Shown here piece by piece: positions 3,994-20,025 of a stretch of 26,986 nt of DNA (its first letter is position 1; each line of letters begins with the position of its first letter). Origin of the DNA: a virus. The position numbers and the translations under genes were made by a program. Under the pieces are notes generated by a model. It was not told the origin of the DNA. It was given only the letters and a program-made list of their open reading frames with translations, and made no database searches. Location of the stretch: the IMG/VR virus record IMGVR_UViG_3300042868_004606, positions 1-26,986 of that record. One strand, written 5' to 3'.

Positions 3994-3997
<4 letters not shown>

Positions 3998-5046
3998 AAG
4001 TTGCCATATACACAATCGCATTGAATGAGGAAAAACACGTTGAACGCTGGTATGAGTCAAGTAAGCAAGCCGATTACCACCTCATTGCTGACACAGGTTC
4101 AACCGACGGAACAGTTGCCAGAGCTACCGCTTTGGGTATCAATGTCATACAAGTTGGGCTTTCACCATTTAGGTTCGATGATGCAAGGAACGCATCTCTC
4201 ACGGCACTGCCGATAGATATTGATTACTGCATATCGTTAGATATGGATGAAGTAATGGTTGAGGGTTGGCGTGAGGAATTAGAAAAGGCTTACGCTGACG
4301 GAATTACTAGACCTGGTTATAGATTTATCTATGCTTGGACAGAAGATGGCAAGCCAAGTGAAGAAATGACTGGCTTTAGAATCCACGCCCGTAAGGGTTA
4401 TAGGTGGAAGTATCCGATCCACGAAGTACCAGATCCATACGGCATAGATGAAACAAAGAAGACTTACGACTTTCAAGTTCACCACTTGCCTGATAACGAG
4501 AAGTCTCGTGGCCAGTATCTACCAATGCTAGAGATGGCAGTAGCTGAAGATCCTAATAGTAGAAACCTTTACTATCTAGGCCGAGAATACTTTTACAAGG
4601 GTAAGTTTGAGGACTCTCTACGTATACTAAAGGGTTACTTAGATATAAGTAAGTTCCCAGAGGAACGTGGTTATGCGCTTCGCTTGATGAGCAAGTGCGA
4701 TCCAAAGATGGAAGAAGAATATCTGATCCGTTCTACCGAAGAATACGGTAGCCGTGAGTCTGTTCTTGCGTTAGCGAACTATTACTACCGAACCCAGAAG
4801 TGGGACGAGTGTTTACTGGTATCACGTAAGTCATTAGAGATAACCAATAAGTCACTTAACTTCTTATCAGAACATTGGGCGTGGGGCCATATGCCTTACG
4901 ACCTTATAGCAATTAGTAGCTGGCAACTGGGTGACTGGAAGACAGCGTATGAATATGGAAAGCAAGCAGTAGAGATAAGCCCAAACGATGAACGCCTAGT
5001 TAATAACTTGGCCTTCTATAAGGAGAAACTGGATGGCAACACTTAA
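3994..5046 (+). CDS. Glycosyltransferase family 2-like protein with TPR-type C-terminus
   Basis: A 350-residue protein from TTG 3994. Residues 1-100 show a GT-A fold: IYTIALNEEKHVERW, DTGSTDGT and the metal-binding SLDMDE. Residues from about 190 on are helical repeats of TPR type (NLYYLGREYFYKGKFEDSL, ALANYYYRTQKWDECL, AYEYGKQAVEISPND). This arrangement is seen in SunS/GT2-type enzymes that modify peptides or proteins, where the TPR part may hold the substrate. It overlaps the GT25 gene at its start and the next gene by 14 bases at its end. Protein glycosylation of the adjacent collagen-like fibre is an inference. Confidence 0.85.
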
Positions 5047-7415: not shown

Positions 7416-7963
7416 TGACACCAATTCTAGGCATTACCGCTTCACAGATTACTGGTCATCTTTGGTCACCAGGCAAAGACTATGACAGCATTGCAACAAC
7501 TACTGTTTCAACAGCAGTTTCATCAATTACTTTTAGTTCTATACCTACTACCTATCGTCATTTACAAATTAGAGCAATTGCTAAAAATGGAACCAGTTCT
7601 TCAAATGTAATTATGTATTTTAATGGAGACAGCGTAACAACTAATTATCGAAGTCACTATATGGAAGGAACTGGTTCCGCTGTTAGTTCTGGGTCTGTTA
7701 CTTCATATAATGGCATTTTTTGTTTTGGTTCTTCTCAGCCAACAAGTATTGTTGGAGCAGGCGTTATAGATATTTTAGATTATTCTTCTAGCGTTAAAAA
7801 CAAAGTAACCCGTGTTTTGGGTGGAGCAGATGAAAATGGAACAGGCGTTATAGATTTTACTTCTGGTATATGGGTGAATACTTCTTCCATTACTTCAATT
7901 ACTTTTAGCGTTTATAGTTCTTTTCAATCTGGAACTCAATTTGCACTTTACGGGGTGAAATAA
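7415..7963 (+). CDS. Tail fibre module, first of three paralogues
   Basis: A 182-residue protein. The start is taken at ATG 7415, which overlaps the previous stop (TAATG). An in-frame upstream codon at 7388 lies inside the previous gene. The order of elements is SSITFSSIPTTYRHLQI, then YFNGDSVTTNYRSHYMEG, then IDILDYSSSVKNK, then GIWVNTSSITSITF and FALYGVK. The same order recurs in the proteins at 7965 and 8480. The low GC and run of T-rich codons set it apart from the preceding genes. It is probably a receptor-binding or fibre subunit. Confidence 0.72.
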   Translation: MTPILGITASQITGHLWSPGKDYDSIATTTVSTAVSSITFSSIPTTYRHLQIRAIAKNGTSSSNVIMYFNGDSVTTNYRSHYMEGTGSAVSSGSVTSYNGIFCFGSSQPTSIVGAGVIDILDYSSSVKNKVTRVLGGADENGTGVIDFTSGIWVNTSSITSITFSVYSSFQSGTQFALYGVK

Positions 7964-7964
7964 T

Positions 7965-8468
7965 ATGGCCGCAGGAAATACATACACACAGATTGCCTCA
8001 ACCACCCTTGGTTCGGCAGCATCAAGCGTTACATTCTCAAGCATTGCTGGTACCTATACTGATTTGGTACTCATTATGAACGCAGGTTCAAGTGTCAATA
8101 ACGCAGACATAGACATAAATGTCAATGGAGATACTGGAGCAAACTATAGCCGTACCGTTCTTTGGGGAAATGGTACATCTACTGGGTCTGTGCGTAATAC
8201 TGGTGCTTCGGTATTTCGTCTTACTTATTACGGAAATGCAACTACTGATTTTAGTTGGGTTGGCATAGTTAATTTTATGAATTATTCCAATACTACAACC
8301 TATAAGACATTTTTAAGCAAGGCTAGAAATGCTATTACTTACGGAATAAACGAGCAAGTAGGACTATGGCGTAACACGGCTGCTATTAGCAGTATGGTCA
8401 TAACTAATGCAAGCGGAACTTTTAATACTGGCAGCACATTCAATCTCTACGGCATCACGGCAGCATAA
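7965..8468 (+). CDS. Tail fibre module, second of three paralogues
   Basis: A 167-residue protein with the motifs SSVTFSSIAGTYTDLVLIMN, INVNGDTGANYSRTVLWGNG, VGIVNFMNYSNTTTYKTFLS, GLWRNTAAISSMVI and FNLYGI, in the same order as its two neighbours. It is entirely beta-rich with no cysteine and no membrane segment. Two bases separate it from the previous stop. A host-surface-binding role is inferred from the fibre context, not demonstrated. Confidence 0.74.
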   Translation: MAAGNTYTQIASTTLGSAASSVTFSSIAGTYTDLVLIMNAGSSVNNADIDINVNGDTGANYSRTVLWGNGTSTGSVRNTGASVFRLTYYGNATTDFSWVGIVNFMNYSNTTTYKTFLSKARNAITYGINEQVGLWRNTAAISSMVITNASGTFNTGSTFNLYGITAA

Positions 8469-13246: not shown

Positions 13247-13434
13247 TGGATAAGAAACTACAAGCAATGTTCGCTACGTATTTACGTGCGGGAATTGCAT
13301 CAGTAATCGCACTATTCCTTGCCGGAGTGACAGAACCAAAGGCACTAGCAATGGCAGGTCTTGCTGCTATCGCAGGTCCACTGCTAAAAGCATTAGATCC
13401 AAAAGCCGCAGAGTTTGGTCGTGGGTCTAAGTAA
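13246..13434 (+). CDS. Holin-like membrane protein
   Basis: A 62-residue protein with AAGGAGAACTA before ATG 13246, overlapping the endolysin stop by one base. A basic N-terminus (MDKKLQAMFATYLRAG) is followed by two hydrophobic stretches, about residues 15-29 and 33-48, and a charged tail ending FGRGSK. Two short membrane segments with a tight turn and positive ends fit a small holin. It would release the endolysin to the cell wall. A strong terminator follows, so it is the last gene of the late block. Confidence 0.75.
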   Translation: MDKKLQAMFATYLRAGIASVIALFLAGVTEPKALAMAGLAAIAGPLLKALDPKAAEFGRGSK

Positions 13435-13458
13435 CCCATAGCAACGCGAGGCAAAAGG

Positions 13459-13492
13459 CCCTCCACCCTTACGGGTGGGGGGTTCTTTTTTT
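13459..13492 (+). terminator. Strong intrinsic terminator of the late block
   Basis: CCCTCCACCC (13459-13468), loop TTAC, then GGGTGGGGGG (13473-13482) form a 10-bp stem with one wobble. It is followed by TTCTTTTTTT. It lies 25 bases after the holin-like gene stop and is the clearest terminator in the window. Confidence 0.93.
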
Positions 13493-13560
13493 ATGTCAAA
13501 AAGTTGGGCAGTTTAACATCGTACCCAGGATCAGCACTTGAGATTCGGGAGATCTGCTCC

Positions 13561-13854
13561 CTATTCCGCGTCAACGGGACACGGAACTGTTACTAGATTA
13601 CCACAGTTAACGCATACTGCGTCAAGGAAATACCAGACCATTTCGTGGTCTTCAAAAGAACACATAACATTAAAGACTTGTGAGCCACAAGGACAGACGT
13701 GTATTGGGCCTAGCTCCCGAAGGTCGCTACCAAATACTGGTGGTAATGGGCTAGAGTTTCTTGACAGGGTTGGTAGACGGAGCCAGCGCAGTAGCCCTGT
13801 AGTACCCCTATCGCGCCCCGCAAGGGGGCGCTCACCCCGTTTAATTCGCCTCAC
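13561..13854 (-). CDS. Zinc-ribbon protein, actinophage type
   Basis: A 97-residue frame on the minus strand. The zinc ribbon is obvious: HVCPCGS (C54, C56) and AVCVNCGNL (C81, C84), with the order HVCPCG...F......W.FL...C..CG...T.P.P.D that I recall from many actinophage proteins. The N-terminal ~45 residues are Arg-rich and poorly ordered. The only upstream start is GTG 13854, with no good ribosome site. The start is uncertain, while the zinc-ribbon part is well supported. It diverges from the gene at 13924 and may bind nucleic acid or a transcription protein. Confidence 0.75.
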   Translation of the reverse strand: MRRIKRGERPLAGRDRGTTGLLRWLRLPTLSRNSSPLPPVFGSDLRELGPIHVCPCGSQVFNVMCSFEDHEMVWYFLDAVCVNCGNLVTVPCPVDAE

Positions 13855-13884
13855 GGCTCATATTGTAGCCAAACCAGTAGCGTG

Positions 13885-13927
13885 TCTCTAGTAAGACACG
13901 CCGATCTCTAGTAAGATTCTAGTATGA
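13885..13927 (+). repeat. Tandem TCTCTAGTAAGA repeats between divergent genes
   Basis: TCTCTAGTAAGA occurs at 13885-13896 and 13905-13916, an exact 20-base period. A shorter TCTAGTATGA at 13918-13927 runs into the start codon. Each full copy is a partial palindrome (TCT..AGA), and the first lies in a longer hairpin CGTGTCT-CTAGTA-AGACACG (13881-13900). Position in the 69-base gap between divergent genes suggests an operator or leader element. The regulator is unknown. Confidence 0.6.
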
Positions 13928-14481
13928 CTACGATCTCAGCTATACAAACGGACTATTACGCCGTGCTCTGCGCTGACTCGCAGATCACAGAGGACAACCT
14001 AATAAGTACCTCGACTAGTACACCCAAGATCGTCGAGGTGGGAAAGTTTCTAATAGGCATTTCCGGCGATATACGCCCAGGAGATATACTTACCTACAAT
14101 TGGAAACCACCAGCATATCGCGGTGAGAATCCAGTAACATATATGGGCGCCAAGGTGATACCTAGTATCATCTCAGCGTTTAATGAAAACAACTACGAGT
14201 GGAACAAGGTGGAAAAAGATGGTGGCTTTGATTATCTCTTTGCTTTTAACGGTAATATCTTTAGGGTTGCTTGTGATCTCTCTTTTTTCCAAACAGATCA
14301 CGGAACTTATGGCATTGGTAGTGGTGGGCAGCTTGCTCTTGGCTACCTGTATTCAATCCGCAAGTCTGATATGGAATTAGATTACCTCAAGCGACACGCC
14401 CGTCGTGCTGTTGAGATAGCTTCAGTCCTTGACTCTAATACTGGTAAGCCTTTACAGTTGGTGGTACAAGAAAAGCTATAG
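13924..14481 (+). CDS. HslV/proteasome-beta-like Ntn hydrolase
   Basis: A 185-residue protein that starts MTTISAIQTDYYAVLCADSQ. Removing Met would expose Thr as the nucleophile. The other expected residues follow at the right places: the Asp of ADS (D17 in mature numbering), the Lys of TPKIVEV (K34), the glycine turn GISGD, the IGSGGQLALGY motif (Ser-Gly-Gly near 132-134) and a C-terminal Asp-Ser (SVLDSNTGKP). HslV is about 175 residues and also starts TT and contains IGSGG. It should form a self-processing threonine peptidase. No HslU/ATPase gene is next to it. It heads the early operon, so an anti-host or regulatory protein-degradation role is possible but inferred. Confidence 0.78.
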   Translation: MTTISAIQTDYYAVLCADSQITEDNLISTSTSTPKIVEVGKFLIGISGDIRPGDILTYNWKPPAYRGENPVTYMGAKVIPSIISAFNENNYEWNKVEKDGGFDYLFAFNGNIFRVACDLSFFQTDHGTYGIGSGGQLALGYLYSIRKSDMELDYLKRHARRAVEIASVLDSNTGKPLQLVVQEKL

Positions 14482-14490
14482 GAGGTAGCG

Positions 14491-14709
14491 ATGGAAAAGA
14501 CTATGGAGTATGCGCTTAACGAAGCGCTAGAGATGGGTTACAAGGCCGCTGGCATTAACTCATTTAATGAAATGGCTTTAAGAGAATCACTTGCTCAAGA
14601 TATTGAATCATTCACTTGCGTTGATGGTTGCGGTGAATGTGATTACTGCAAAGGTTTATTCCAAGCAGCAAACCTGGTAAGGGGAACTTCTCGTGAGCGA
14701 CTTTACTGA
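14491..14709 (+). CDS. Small Cys-cluster protein, unknown function
   Basis: A 72-residue protein with a textbook AGGAGG ribosome site. The N-terminal half is helical and acidic. The second half has four cysteines, TCVDGCGECDYCKG (C43, C47, C50, C53), which could bind one metal ion or an Fe-S cluster. The C-terminus overlaps the nuclease gene by 17 bases. Its position before an Fe-S-type nuclease is suggestive, but no function is established. Confidence 0.68.
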   Translation: MEKTMEYALNEALEMGYKAAGINSFNEMALRESLAQDIESFTCVDGCGECDYCKGLFQAANLVRGTSRERLY

Positions 14710-15643
14710 TCCAAAAGAATTACTACTAACAGCACTACGCAGTGCTGATGCTAAGAAGTCTCGTTCAACACAGGTACAGATAGGACCATCAGAGGTTGGT
14801 GGTTGCCGTCGTAGGGTCTGGTACCGGTTGAATGAACAACCAGAAACAAATGATAATCAACTAAAGCTCGCTGCCATTATGGGTACTGCTATCCACGCAG
14901 AGATCGAGAAGGCGCTAGCCGGTAACGATAAGTTAATGATCGAAGCTGAAGTTGAGTACGATGGAATGAAAGCCCACATAGATTTATATGTACCAGAGAC
15001 TGGCGATGTAATTGACTGGAAGACTTCCAAGTTGAAGAACTTGGGTTACTTTCCGTCAACACAGCAACGCTGGCAGGTGCAGCTATATGGATACCTCCTA
15101 TCCAAAAACGGTTACGTAGTCAACCGAGTGTCGCTAGTTGCGATTGCTAGGGACGGCGATGAAAGAGACGTCAAGGTTCACACAGAACCTTACGACGAAT
15201 CTATAGCACTAACTGCACTCGGTTGGCTCGCAACTGTTAAGGAATCAAAGGAACTCCCAGCACCAGAAAAGGATGCTAGTTACTGCCAGCATTACTGCCA
15301 GTTCTACGACGCATCTGGTGAGATGGGATGCGATGGTCTAAAAAAAGAACGTACCGCAGTCAGTGATATAATCATTGATGATGCGGATGTTGACAAGAAC
15401 GCACTGCTGTACTTACAGTTAGGGCAAGCAATAAAGGAGCTAGAGAAGCAACAAGATTCTCTGAAAGAATCCTTCATAGGTTTACTAGGTACTACGCAAA
15501 GTGGTATCGAAGTAAGTTGGTCAACTATTAAAGGTCGCGAGACCGTTGATAGTAGCGAGGTAGAAAAACTATTAGGTTTCGTACCTAAGAAGGTAAGCGC
15601 TGAGAGTCAGCGTTTATCTGTTAAACAAGTTGGAGGTAACTAA
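14693..15643 (+). CDS. Cas4-like PD-(D/E)XK exonuclease with Fe-S cysteines
   Basis: A 316-residue protein from GTG 14693. The N-terminal Cys lies in SEVGGCRRRVWYRL (C38). The nuclease core shows GTAIHAEIEKAL (H68), AHIDLYV (D97), VIDWKTSK (D108, K110) and QVQLYGYLL (Q128/Q130). The C-terminal cysteines lie in SYCQHYCQFY and MGCDG (C198, C202, C213). One early and three late cysteines are the hallmark of Cas4/AddB-type Fe-S RecB nucleases. It probably processes phage DNA ends during replication or recombination. No CRISPR genes accompany it, so a phage recombination role is preferred over adaptation. The last ~90 residues are helical. Confidence 0.86.
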   Translation: MSDFTDPKELLLTALRSADAKKSRSTQVQIGPSEVGGCRRRVWYRLNEQPETNDNQLKLAAIMGTAIHAEIEKALAGNDKLMIEAEVEYDGMKAHIDLYVPETGDVIDWKTSKLKNLGYFPSTQQRWQVQLYGYLLSKNGYVVNRVSLVAIARDGDERDVKVHTEPYDESIALTALGWLATVKESKELPAPEKDASYCQHYCQFYDASGEMGCDGLKKERTAVSDIIIDDADVDKNALLYLQLGQAIKELEKQQDSLKESFIGLLGTTQSGIEVSWSTIKGRETVDSSEVEKLLGFVPKKVSAESQRLSVKQVGGN

Positions 15644-16030: not shown

Positions 16031-16306
16031 ATGCGGGGGCCGCAAGATTATGAAGCTCCCAGTTGTGCCGAAGTCGGTGGTGATTTTTGGTTTGCGGAAA
16101 AAGATGTTGACGATAATGAGTTAAAGGTAATCAATGATTACAACTTTGCTAAGTCAATATGTAATAGATGTATCCATAAAATCGAGTGTGCCGAATGGGG
16201 TTTAAGGAAAGAAGCCTGGGGTATGTGGGGCGGTCTTTCACCAAAGGATCGAAAAGAAATCCGTAGACAACAGAATATATTCCTTGAAGGAGATAGACGT
16301 GCTTGA
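16031..16306 (+). CDS. WhiB-family iron-sulfur transcription regulator
   Basis: A 91-residue protein. The four WhiB cysteines are present: C12 (PSCAEVGGDFWF), C44 and C47 (SICNRCIHK) and C53 (IECAEWG), followed by the turn GMWGG at residues 64-68 and a basic tail (KDRKEIRRQ). WhiB proteins bind a [4Fe-4S] cluster and contact the primary sigma factor in actinobacteria. Phage copies such as that of phage TM4 alter host division and superinfection. The gene points strongly to an actinobacterial host. It overlaps the next gene by eight bases. Confidence 0.92.
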   Translation: MRGPQDYEAPSCAEVGGDFWFAEKDVDDNELKVINDYNFAKSICNRCIHKIECAEWGLRKEAWGMWGGLSPKDRKEIRRQQNIFLEGDRRA

Positions 16307-19014: not shown

Positions 19015-19393
19015 CGGATCAAGATTGGGAAAGATTGCTACAGACTATGCTTACTATGGGCTTACAGATCCTGGACTCGGACAGAGCGAGCGAGACTATA
19101 TTGATAAGGCCAATACCGACGCGTTTATAGCAGCGATGTGGGATGTGCTAGATGGTGCTGGTAACTTGCTTCTAAAGAAGCATAGGGATTACGGCCCAAG
19201 CAATATAGCTGGCGCACCAGGTGGGCCGCTAAATGGTTTGCGTGTACGTATGTGGGATAAGACAGCACGCATTAACCACTTGATTGATAGCGGTGCTACT
19301 CCTGAGAACGAATCGCTACGCGATAGCTTCATTGATCTATTAAACTACAGCGCTATTGCTTTACTAGTACTGGACGGTAAGTGGCCTGAGTGA
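19007..19393 (+). CDS. Nucleotide-modification-associated domain 1 (DUF1599-like) protein
   Basis: A 128-residue helical protein from GTG 19007, with AGGAG before it. The motifs KKHRDYGPSNIAG (residues 57-69), LRVRMWDKTARINHLI and SLRDSFIDLLNYSAIALLV match the Nmad1/DUF1599 family ('Kn.dYG......l..Rl.DK..R...L....e...D...DL.nYa'). This family is linked by gene context to modified bases in phage DNA. Which reaction it supports is unknown. No other obvious base-modification gene is visible in the window. Confidence 0.82.
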   Translation: MNDGSRLGKIATDYAYYGLTDPGLGQSERDYIDKANTDAFIAAMWDVLDGAGNLLLKKHRDYGPSNIAGAPGGPLNGLRVRMWDKTARINHLIDSGATPENESLRDSFIDLLNYSAIALLVLDGKWPE

Positions 19394-20025
19394 CCGGTGT
19401 TGATCCAGTTATCTATGACATAGCACCTGGCGTTGCTCGTGCTATTCACAATAGGTACAAGGCTTACGTCGAACGTGAGGATGTAGTACAGGAGTGTCTA
19501 TCGTGGGCGCTAACGCGCCATAGTTGGATAGCTGACCAGTTACTAGAAGCAACTGATCCTGATAAGCGTAAGCACGCTGAGTCACGCATAGCGTGGCAGA
19601 TGAGACGTGCTGCTGAACGCTACTCGCGTCGTGAGAAGGCTACTAAGTCTGGCTATCAGATAACTGATGAGGCTTACTACCAAGGCTACACGCTTGGTCA
19701 GTTGTTGCCATTCGTCATCGCATCTGTTGTTGATGGCACAGTGCTTGAACAGATCCAAGATATGATTCAAGATGGGCAACCACGCGGATCATCTAGCCCA
19801 TCTGAAGGTGGCAACCTACTCGCTAACCTAATAGATATTAAGATTGGCTACACCAAACTCGAAGCCGAGGATAAGATTCTATTGCGTGTTAGATACCTAG
19901 ATAGCTTCACCTTACAACAGATAGCTAACCACTACCAGTGTTCAGTATCTACTGCTGATCGCAGGATTGATGGCGCTATGCGCCGGCTACAGGATCTACT
20001 AGGAGGGGTGAGTCCTTTCCAATGA
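19390..20025 (+). CDS. Sigma-70-like transcription factor
   Basis: A 211-residue protein, starting by GTGA overlap. Residues ~15-50 resemble sigma region 2 (AIHNRYKAYVEREDVVQECL, then ALTRHSWI). Residues ~157-203 form a region-4 helix-turn-helix (DKILLRVRYLDSFTLQQIAN, then CSVSTADRRIDGAMRRL). The middle is more divergent and carries a Ser/Gly-rich linker. Such proteins can direct host RNA polymerase to phage promoters. The WhiB gene in the same operon supports a transcription-takeover role, inferred. Confidence 0.78.
   Translation: MTGVDPVIYDIAPGVARAIHNRYKAYVEREDVVQECLSWALTRHSWIADQLLEATDPDKRKHAESRIAWQMRRAAERYSRREKATKSGYQITDEAYYQGYTLGQLLPFVIASVVDGTVLEQIQDMIQDGQPRGSSSPSEGGNLLANLIDIKIGYTKLEAEDKILLRVRYLDSFTLQQIANHYQCSVSTADRRIDGAMRRLQDLLGGVSPFQ

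Follow-up and report, generated by a model that had tools for sequence, protein, structure and literature searches.

The window analysed here (the whole 26,986-nt stretch of viral DNA, positions 1 to 26,986 of IMG/VR record IMGVR_UViG_3300042868_004606) appears to belong to a virus of freshwater bacteria that carries, at the start of an apparent early gene block, a small protein related to the proteolytic subunit of the proteasome. On balance, we lean towards reading this protein as a catalytically competent, ATP-independent threonine peptidase resembling the betaproteobacterial proteasome homologue (BPH), with the assembly, substrate class, early role, and leaderless expression proposed below. 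Phage proteasome homologues are already known (PHROG 1040, and the PPH and AAH families), and an earlier note on this DNA overstated the case in calling such an enzyme unusual, since phage homologues have been on record since 2021 (PMC8665760) and have a PHROG family. What is new here is that two related groups of freshwater phages, the window group and a sister group that includes phage E7, each keep one copy of the gene at a fixed place, and that their probable hosts mostly lack a proteasome.

The enzyme gene and its active site

The gene lies at 13924–14481 on the plus strand, starts with ATG, and encodes a 185-aa proteasome-like Ntn hydrolase of the group-I/BPH-like kind. Its translation (MTTISAIQ...ADSQ...TPKIV...GISGD...IGSGGQLALG) contains a Thr after the Met, followed by the ADS, TPK, GISGD, and IGSGGQLAL motifs in HslV/proteasome order, just as the earlier note had described. 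The product matches the Pfam Proteasome profile PF00227 (1.7e-9, 38 bits vs a cut-off of 22.4) and PHROG 1040, 'peptidase HslV family' (5.4e-25 across residues 1–182); as sequence matches, both are far above chance.

From stop to stop, the frame is only 188 codons long, which leaves no space for a propeptide. Thr2 would therefore become residue 1 upon removal of the initiator Met, with nothing else needed to expose Thr1. In an alignment of 53 diverse phage homologues, which reaches down to about 30% identity to the window's enzyme, M1, T2, T3, D18, K35, G48, G132, and G134 are invariant. The catalytic set is thus complete: the nucleophile Thr2 (codon 13927–13929), Asp18 (13975–13977), Lys35 (14026–14028), and Gly48 of the oxyanion hole (14065–14067), all on the plus strand, which in mature numbering (Thr2 = 1) are Thr1, Asp17, Lys34, and Gly47. 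Both glycines of the Gly132-Ser133-Gly134 motif (14317–14325, plus strand) are among the invariant residues, but some sister-group members have Thr in place of its Ser, a point against the peptidase reading. T2, D18, and K35 are also kept in homologues from five other phage records, down to 23% identity. An N-terminal Thr that can be exposed and is conserved, as the earlier note had anticipated, is therefore present; Thr1 and Asp17 fall where it placed them, but the lysine, which aligns with that of BPH and is the equivalent of proteasome Lys33, is Lys34 in mature numbering. Judging from its codons, the gene is under purifying selection (pairwise median dN/dS of about 0.11 in the close group).

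Fold and family placement

An AlphaFold2 model of the protein, built with phage sequences only, has a mean pLDDT of 88.8 and a pTM of 0.86, and its strands and helices (the latter including 50–59 and 70–88) follow the superfamily's order. A sister-group member was modelled with its core elements in the same order (pLDDT 92.1, pTM 0.88). The predicted fold is thus an Ntn fold, and the top match in the PDB is BPH of Thiobacillus denitrificans (5ovs, TM 0.77), followed by HslV and then by proteasome beta subunits. Membership of the PF00227 superfamily, which the earlier note had proposed, is borne out by the profile score above cut-off, by the alignment of T2/D18/K35/G48 with BPH, by the PHROG match, and by the modelled fold.

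The HslV part of the note's label was not supported. With the two NCBIfam HslV models, the protein scores 18.5 bits (cut-off 157.75) and 19.4 bits (cut-off 137), and BPH is the nearest solved relative, so we rejected the HslV label. When the family profile is compared with solved sequences, BPH again comes first (8.9e-11, full length). The proteasome beta model TIGR03690 (PrcB) has no match to the window protein at E 0.01, and the window holds no second PF00227 gene that could be a PrcA-type partner. Because BPH is best by both profile and fold, and the HslV scores are far under their cut-offs, we place the product as a group-I proteasome-like protein that is closer to BPH than to HslV.

A scan of genome contigs with the query protein found no relative. 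The phage family profile was also used to look for a widespread chromosomal counterpart in actinobacteria, and it gave four weak matches in 397 genomes: one HslV-like and one PrcB-like protein, a short fragment, and a divergent MTT-type protein.

Phage relatives and probable host

The best matches of the window's TerL and helicase are in OX376640 (titled LanE43-AprE7) and OX376641, i.e., the Planktophila phages E7 and F5, which were isolated on 'Ca. Planktophila' LanE-43 (PMC10202952). The window is largely collinear with phage E7, and its G+C content of 44–47% fits the 46.5% of LanE-43 (host figure from PMC10202952). A host in the Nanopelagicales is therefore likely for the window's phage. 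The window also encodes a beta-1,4-glycosyltransferase within its structural block (3994–5046; phrog_13126, 1.4e-114), and glycosyltransferases have been reported in Planktophila phages. Its replication block holds a WhiB-like regulator (16031–16306) and a sigma-70-like factor (19390–20025), as in isolated Planktophila phages.

Host proteolysis machinery

The acI loci, LanE-43 included, were obtained with a published acI probe sequence (PMC3699509). PF00227 has no match in any of 12 acI genomes, including LanE-43, the proven host of the sister phages, and neither Mpa nor HslU was found above cut-off in the same 12. The phage family profile likewise has no match in LanE-43. More broadly, PF00227 occurs in 5 of 201 sampled Nanopelagicales genomes, in each of which two neighbouring genes match it, as a 20S alpha/beta pair would. 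A cognate HslU, sought in the phage and in its inferred host, was not found, and the earlier note was right that no partner ATPase lies nearby, as none is present among the ORFs profiled in the window.

The probable hosts are thus mostly without proteasome, HslV, HslU, and Mpa, which leaves the phage enzyme with neither the customary ATPase partners nor a host proteasome that it could poison. Explanations that invoke HslU, Mpa, or subunit poisoning lose force accordingly. For example, homology to a beta subunit could suggest that the phage protein co-assembles with the host's proteasome or HslV and so poisons or caps it, but a target that is absent from the 12 acI genomes and rare in the order, together with catalytic residues which a decoy would not need, makes this extremely unlikely, and we rejected it.

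The earlier note had also suggested that host ATPases might be exploited, an idea that loses ground with the absence of HslU, Mpa/ARC, and HslV, leaving ClpX and FtsH. LanE-43 encodes both of these above curated cut-offs, and its sub-threshold matches to the Mpa and HslU models are in fact FtsH and ClpX. HslV, a relative of the window's enzyme, needs HslU, which is a ClpX-type ATPase, so the phage protein could conceivably serve as the proteolytic core of an ATP-dependent protease, binding a remaining host unfoldase (ClpX or another Clp/FtsH ATPase) and redirecting host degradation. We consider this unlikely: the canonical partners are absent from the probable hosts, the profile and fold are closer to BPH, for which no partner unfoldase is known (PMC5777263), and Fuchs, Alva and Lupas saw no AAA+ partner co-occurring with homologues of this kind (PMC8665760). 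Since the probable hosts lack the HslUV/Mpa/20S set, proteasome-type activity during infection would be the phage enzyme's own.

Genome position and evolution

Each of 24 phage records examined has exactly one copy of the enzyme gene, and no second copy was found in the structural module of any of them. The window group has the gene between the end of the structural block (upstream neighbour in 62/62 loci) and a Cas4/RecB-like exonuclease (downstream in all 79 loci that reach it). In the window, an intrinsic terminator at 13457–13492 (plus strand) closes the structural gene block; downstream of the enzyme are a 72-aa gene (14491–14709, plus strand) with a good Shine-Dalgarno sequence, AGGAGG at 14480–14485, and then the exonuclease (14693–15643, plus strand; PF01930, phrog_1674). 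Gene order, terminator, and a dedicated promoter-like element support the earlier note's placement of the gene at the head of an early (replication) operon, the early timing being inferred.

The sister group has a different arrangement, with the portal gene as the nearest upstream neighbour in 78/78 assessable loci, in a block that also contains TerL and, at a greater distance, scaffold-like and capsid genes. An exclusively early role therefore cannot be general. This location would suit a protease of virion morphogenesis or maturation, but the window-group gene is outside the structural block and still single-copy, timing would differ between the two groups, and a profile search of the Streptomyces Beephvirinae, whose portal and TerL mark them as relatives, turned up no homologue even at E 10. 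We regard a maturation protease as quite improbable, and such a role is unlikely to be general across both groups, though the sister group by itself might use the enzyme in this way. The near-complete window-group genomes that were examined have no homologue after the portal. One gene may have moved within the lineage or the two groups may have acquired theirs separately. An unrooted tree places the window group with DSL-LC01-like proteins.

The gene's rate of change also differs between the groups. Within the sister group, it is the least conserved of the genes compared (52% identity vs 75–87%), whereas the window-group gene does not stand out from the genome average; between the groups, its identity is 35% vs 40–63% for other genes. 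In phage E7, the homologue occupies 7500–8036, straight after the portal gene, and across the sister group it changes far more quickly than the structural genes around it. Faster change than in neighbouring genes is expected for a partner in an arms race, so the protein might instead be a highly specific enzyme, either a connectase-like ligase/transpeptidase or an amidohydrolase, that acts on one host or defence protein; connectase is an example of ligase/transpeptidase activity in the superfamily, which is thus capable of such specificity (PMC8665760). However, the modelled elements have no connectase-type two-helix insertion between S3 and S4, and the window-group gene keeps to the genome average, making this reading improbable.

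Putative promoters and a divergent gene

A putative -10 element, TAAGAT, at 13912–13917 (plus strand) ends 6 nt before the enzyme's ATG, as would suit a leaderless promoter. Among unique window-group upstream sequences, 49 of 52 have TANNNT 4–9 nt before the ATG, compared with a mean of 5.2 after shuffling, although relatives are not independent observations, and only 6/52 have a Shine-Dalgarno-like tetramer. Sister-group genes have a Shine-Dalgarno-like stretch, e.g., aggaggggaca-ATG.

On the minus strand, a divergent gene (13561–13854) encodes a 97-aa zinc-ribbon-like protein (CxCG...CxxCG). Its frame is conserved in relatives, where just 2 of 75 matches contain stops, and a weak homologue occurs in phage E7. 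A plus-strand ORF at 13538–13891 was rejected as a gene, as it has stops in 57/74 relatives while the minus frame is conserved. The divergent gene has its own putative -10 element, TACAAT, at 13862–13867 (minus strand), 7 nt before its GTG; TANNNT is found at exactly this distance in 36/36 unique relatives (TACAAT in 34), which again are not independent observations.

Midway between the two -10 elements, at 13880–13901, is a palindrome, GCGTGTCT-6 nt-AGACACGC, a putative shared control site. Stems of 6–8 bp are present in 44 of 52 relatives, and the arms vary in sequence between relatives yet stay complementary (GCGTGTCT/AGACACGC, GTGTCG/CGACAC, CGTTGC/GCAACG). No Rfam family was found in 13400–14600. 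The region as a whole resembles a pair of leaderless promoters that point away from each other on either side of a common control site, and the zinc-ribbon-like protein is possibly the regulator that acts there. This paired pattern supports the enzyme gene opening a transcription unit. At three loci (L037, L063, and L066), the enzyme starts at TTG, and the upstream sequence is different, with no palindrome directly before the start.

Proposed role

The peptidase reading that we favour starts from an intact active site without a propeptide, in a gene that is under purifying selection, occurs once per genome, and has a fixed position. Transcription would begin at the leaderless promoter, which would point away from the promoter of the zinc-ribbon protein and share with it the palindrome as a control site. 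The host's Met aminopeptidase would expose Thr1, and the subunits may form a ring or double ring, as those of BPH do. Without a dedicated unfoldase, the enzyme would cut unfolded, flexible, or specific proteins, and it would do so early in infection, in a host that has neither proteasome nor HslUV. Catalysis should not be taken for granted, however, because no activity of BPH was seen on model substrates (PMC5777263).

A broader and rather doubtful extension is that phages of bacteria without a proteasome supply an ATPase-free, proteasome-like machine of their own. A leaderless promoter under divergent control would have it made at the very outset of infection, to reshape the host's proteome or clear away defence proteins, while related phages would express an enzyme of this type from within the structural module. 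The two fixed genome positions offer a natural comparison between structural-module and early deployment. E7, F5, and LanE-43 are in culture, so the enzyme's role is directly testable in one of the most abundant groups of freshwater bacteria; Microbacterium phage Pumpernickel, which is also culturable, has a homologue as well (gene 135). For the earlier note, the outcome is a confirmed observation and a partly supported interpretation.

Comparison with known proteasome homologues

HslV (ClpQ) resembles the window protein in its MTTI start exposed by Met removal, its Asp17, its oxyanion Gly, and its GSGG motifs, but neither the window nor the probable hosts have HslU. By profile, the window protein is a direct member of PHROG 1040, whose name implies an HslV identity that finds no support in the curated HslV scores.

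In 2021, PPH and AAH were among 22 new families of proteasome homologues reported by Fuchs, Alva and Lupas (PMC8665760). Like the window protein, both are group-I proteins carried by tailed phages with no AAA+ partner. PPH, however, is about 140 aa long and lacks helix H2 (PMC8665760), whereas the window protein has 185 aa with both H1 and H2, which sets it outside PPH. For AAH, the difference is one of reported occurrence: the authors found none in actinobacteria-specific phages (PMC8665760), while the window protein belongs to inferred actinophages. A Citromicrobium phage likewise has a gene that was named as BPH-like (PMC8953757).

BPH (5ovs, 5ovt, and 5ovu), which has a long acidic pore loop, is encoded on a bacterial chromosome rather than by a phage, and it shares about 23% identity with the window protein in the fold alignment. 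It forms tetradecameric double rings, binds epoxomicin at Thr1, and has no partner unfoldase that could be found (PMC5777263). The window's enzyme is likewise without a known partner unfoldase, and it has the same Thr1/Asp17/Lys/Gly set as BPH.
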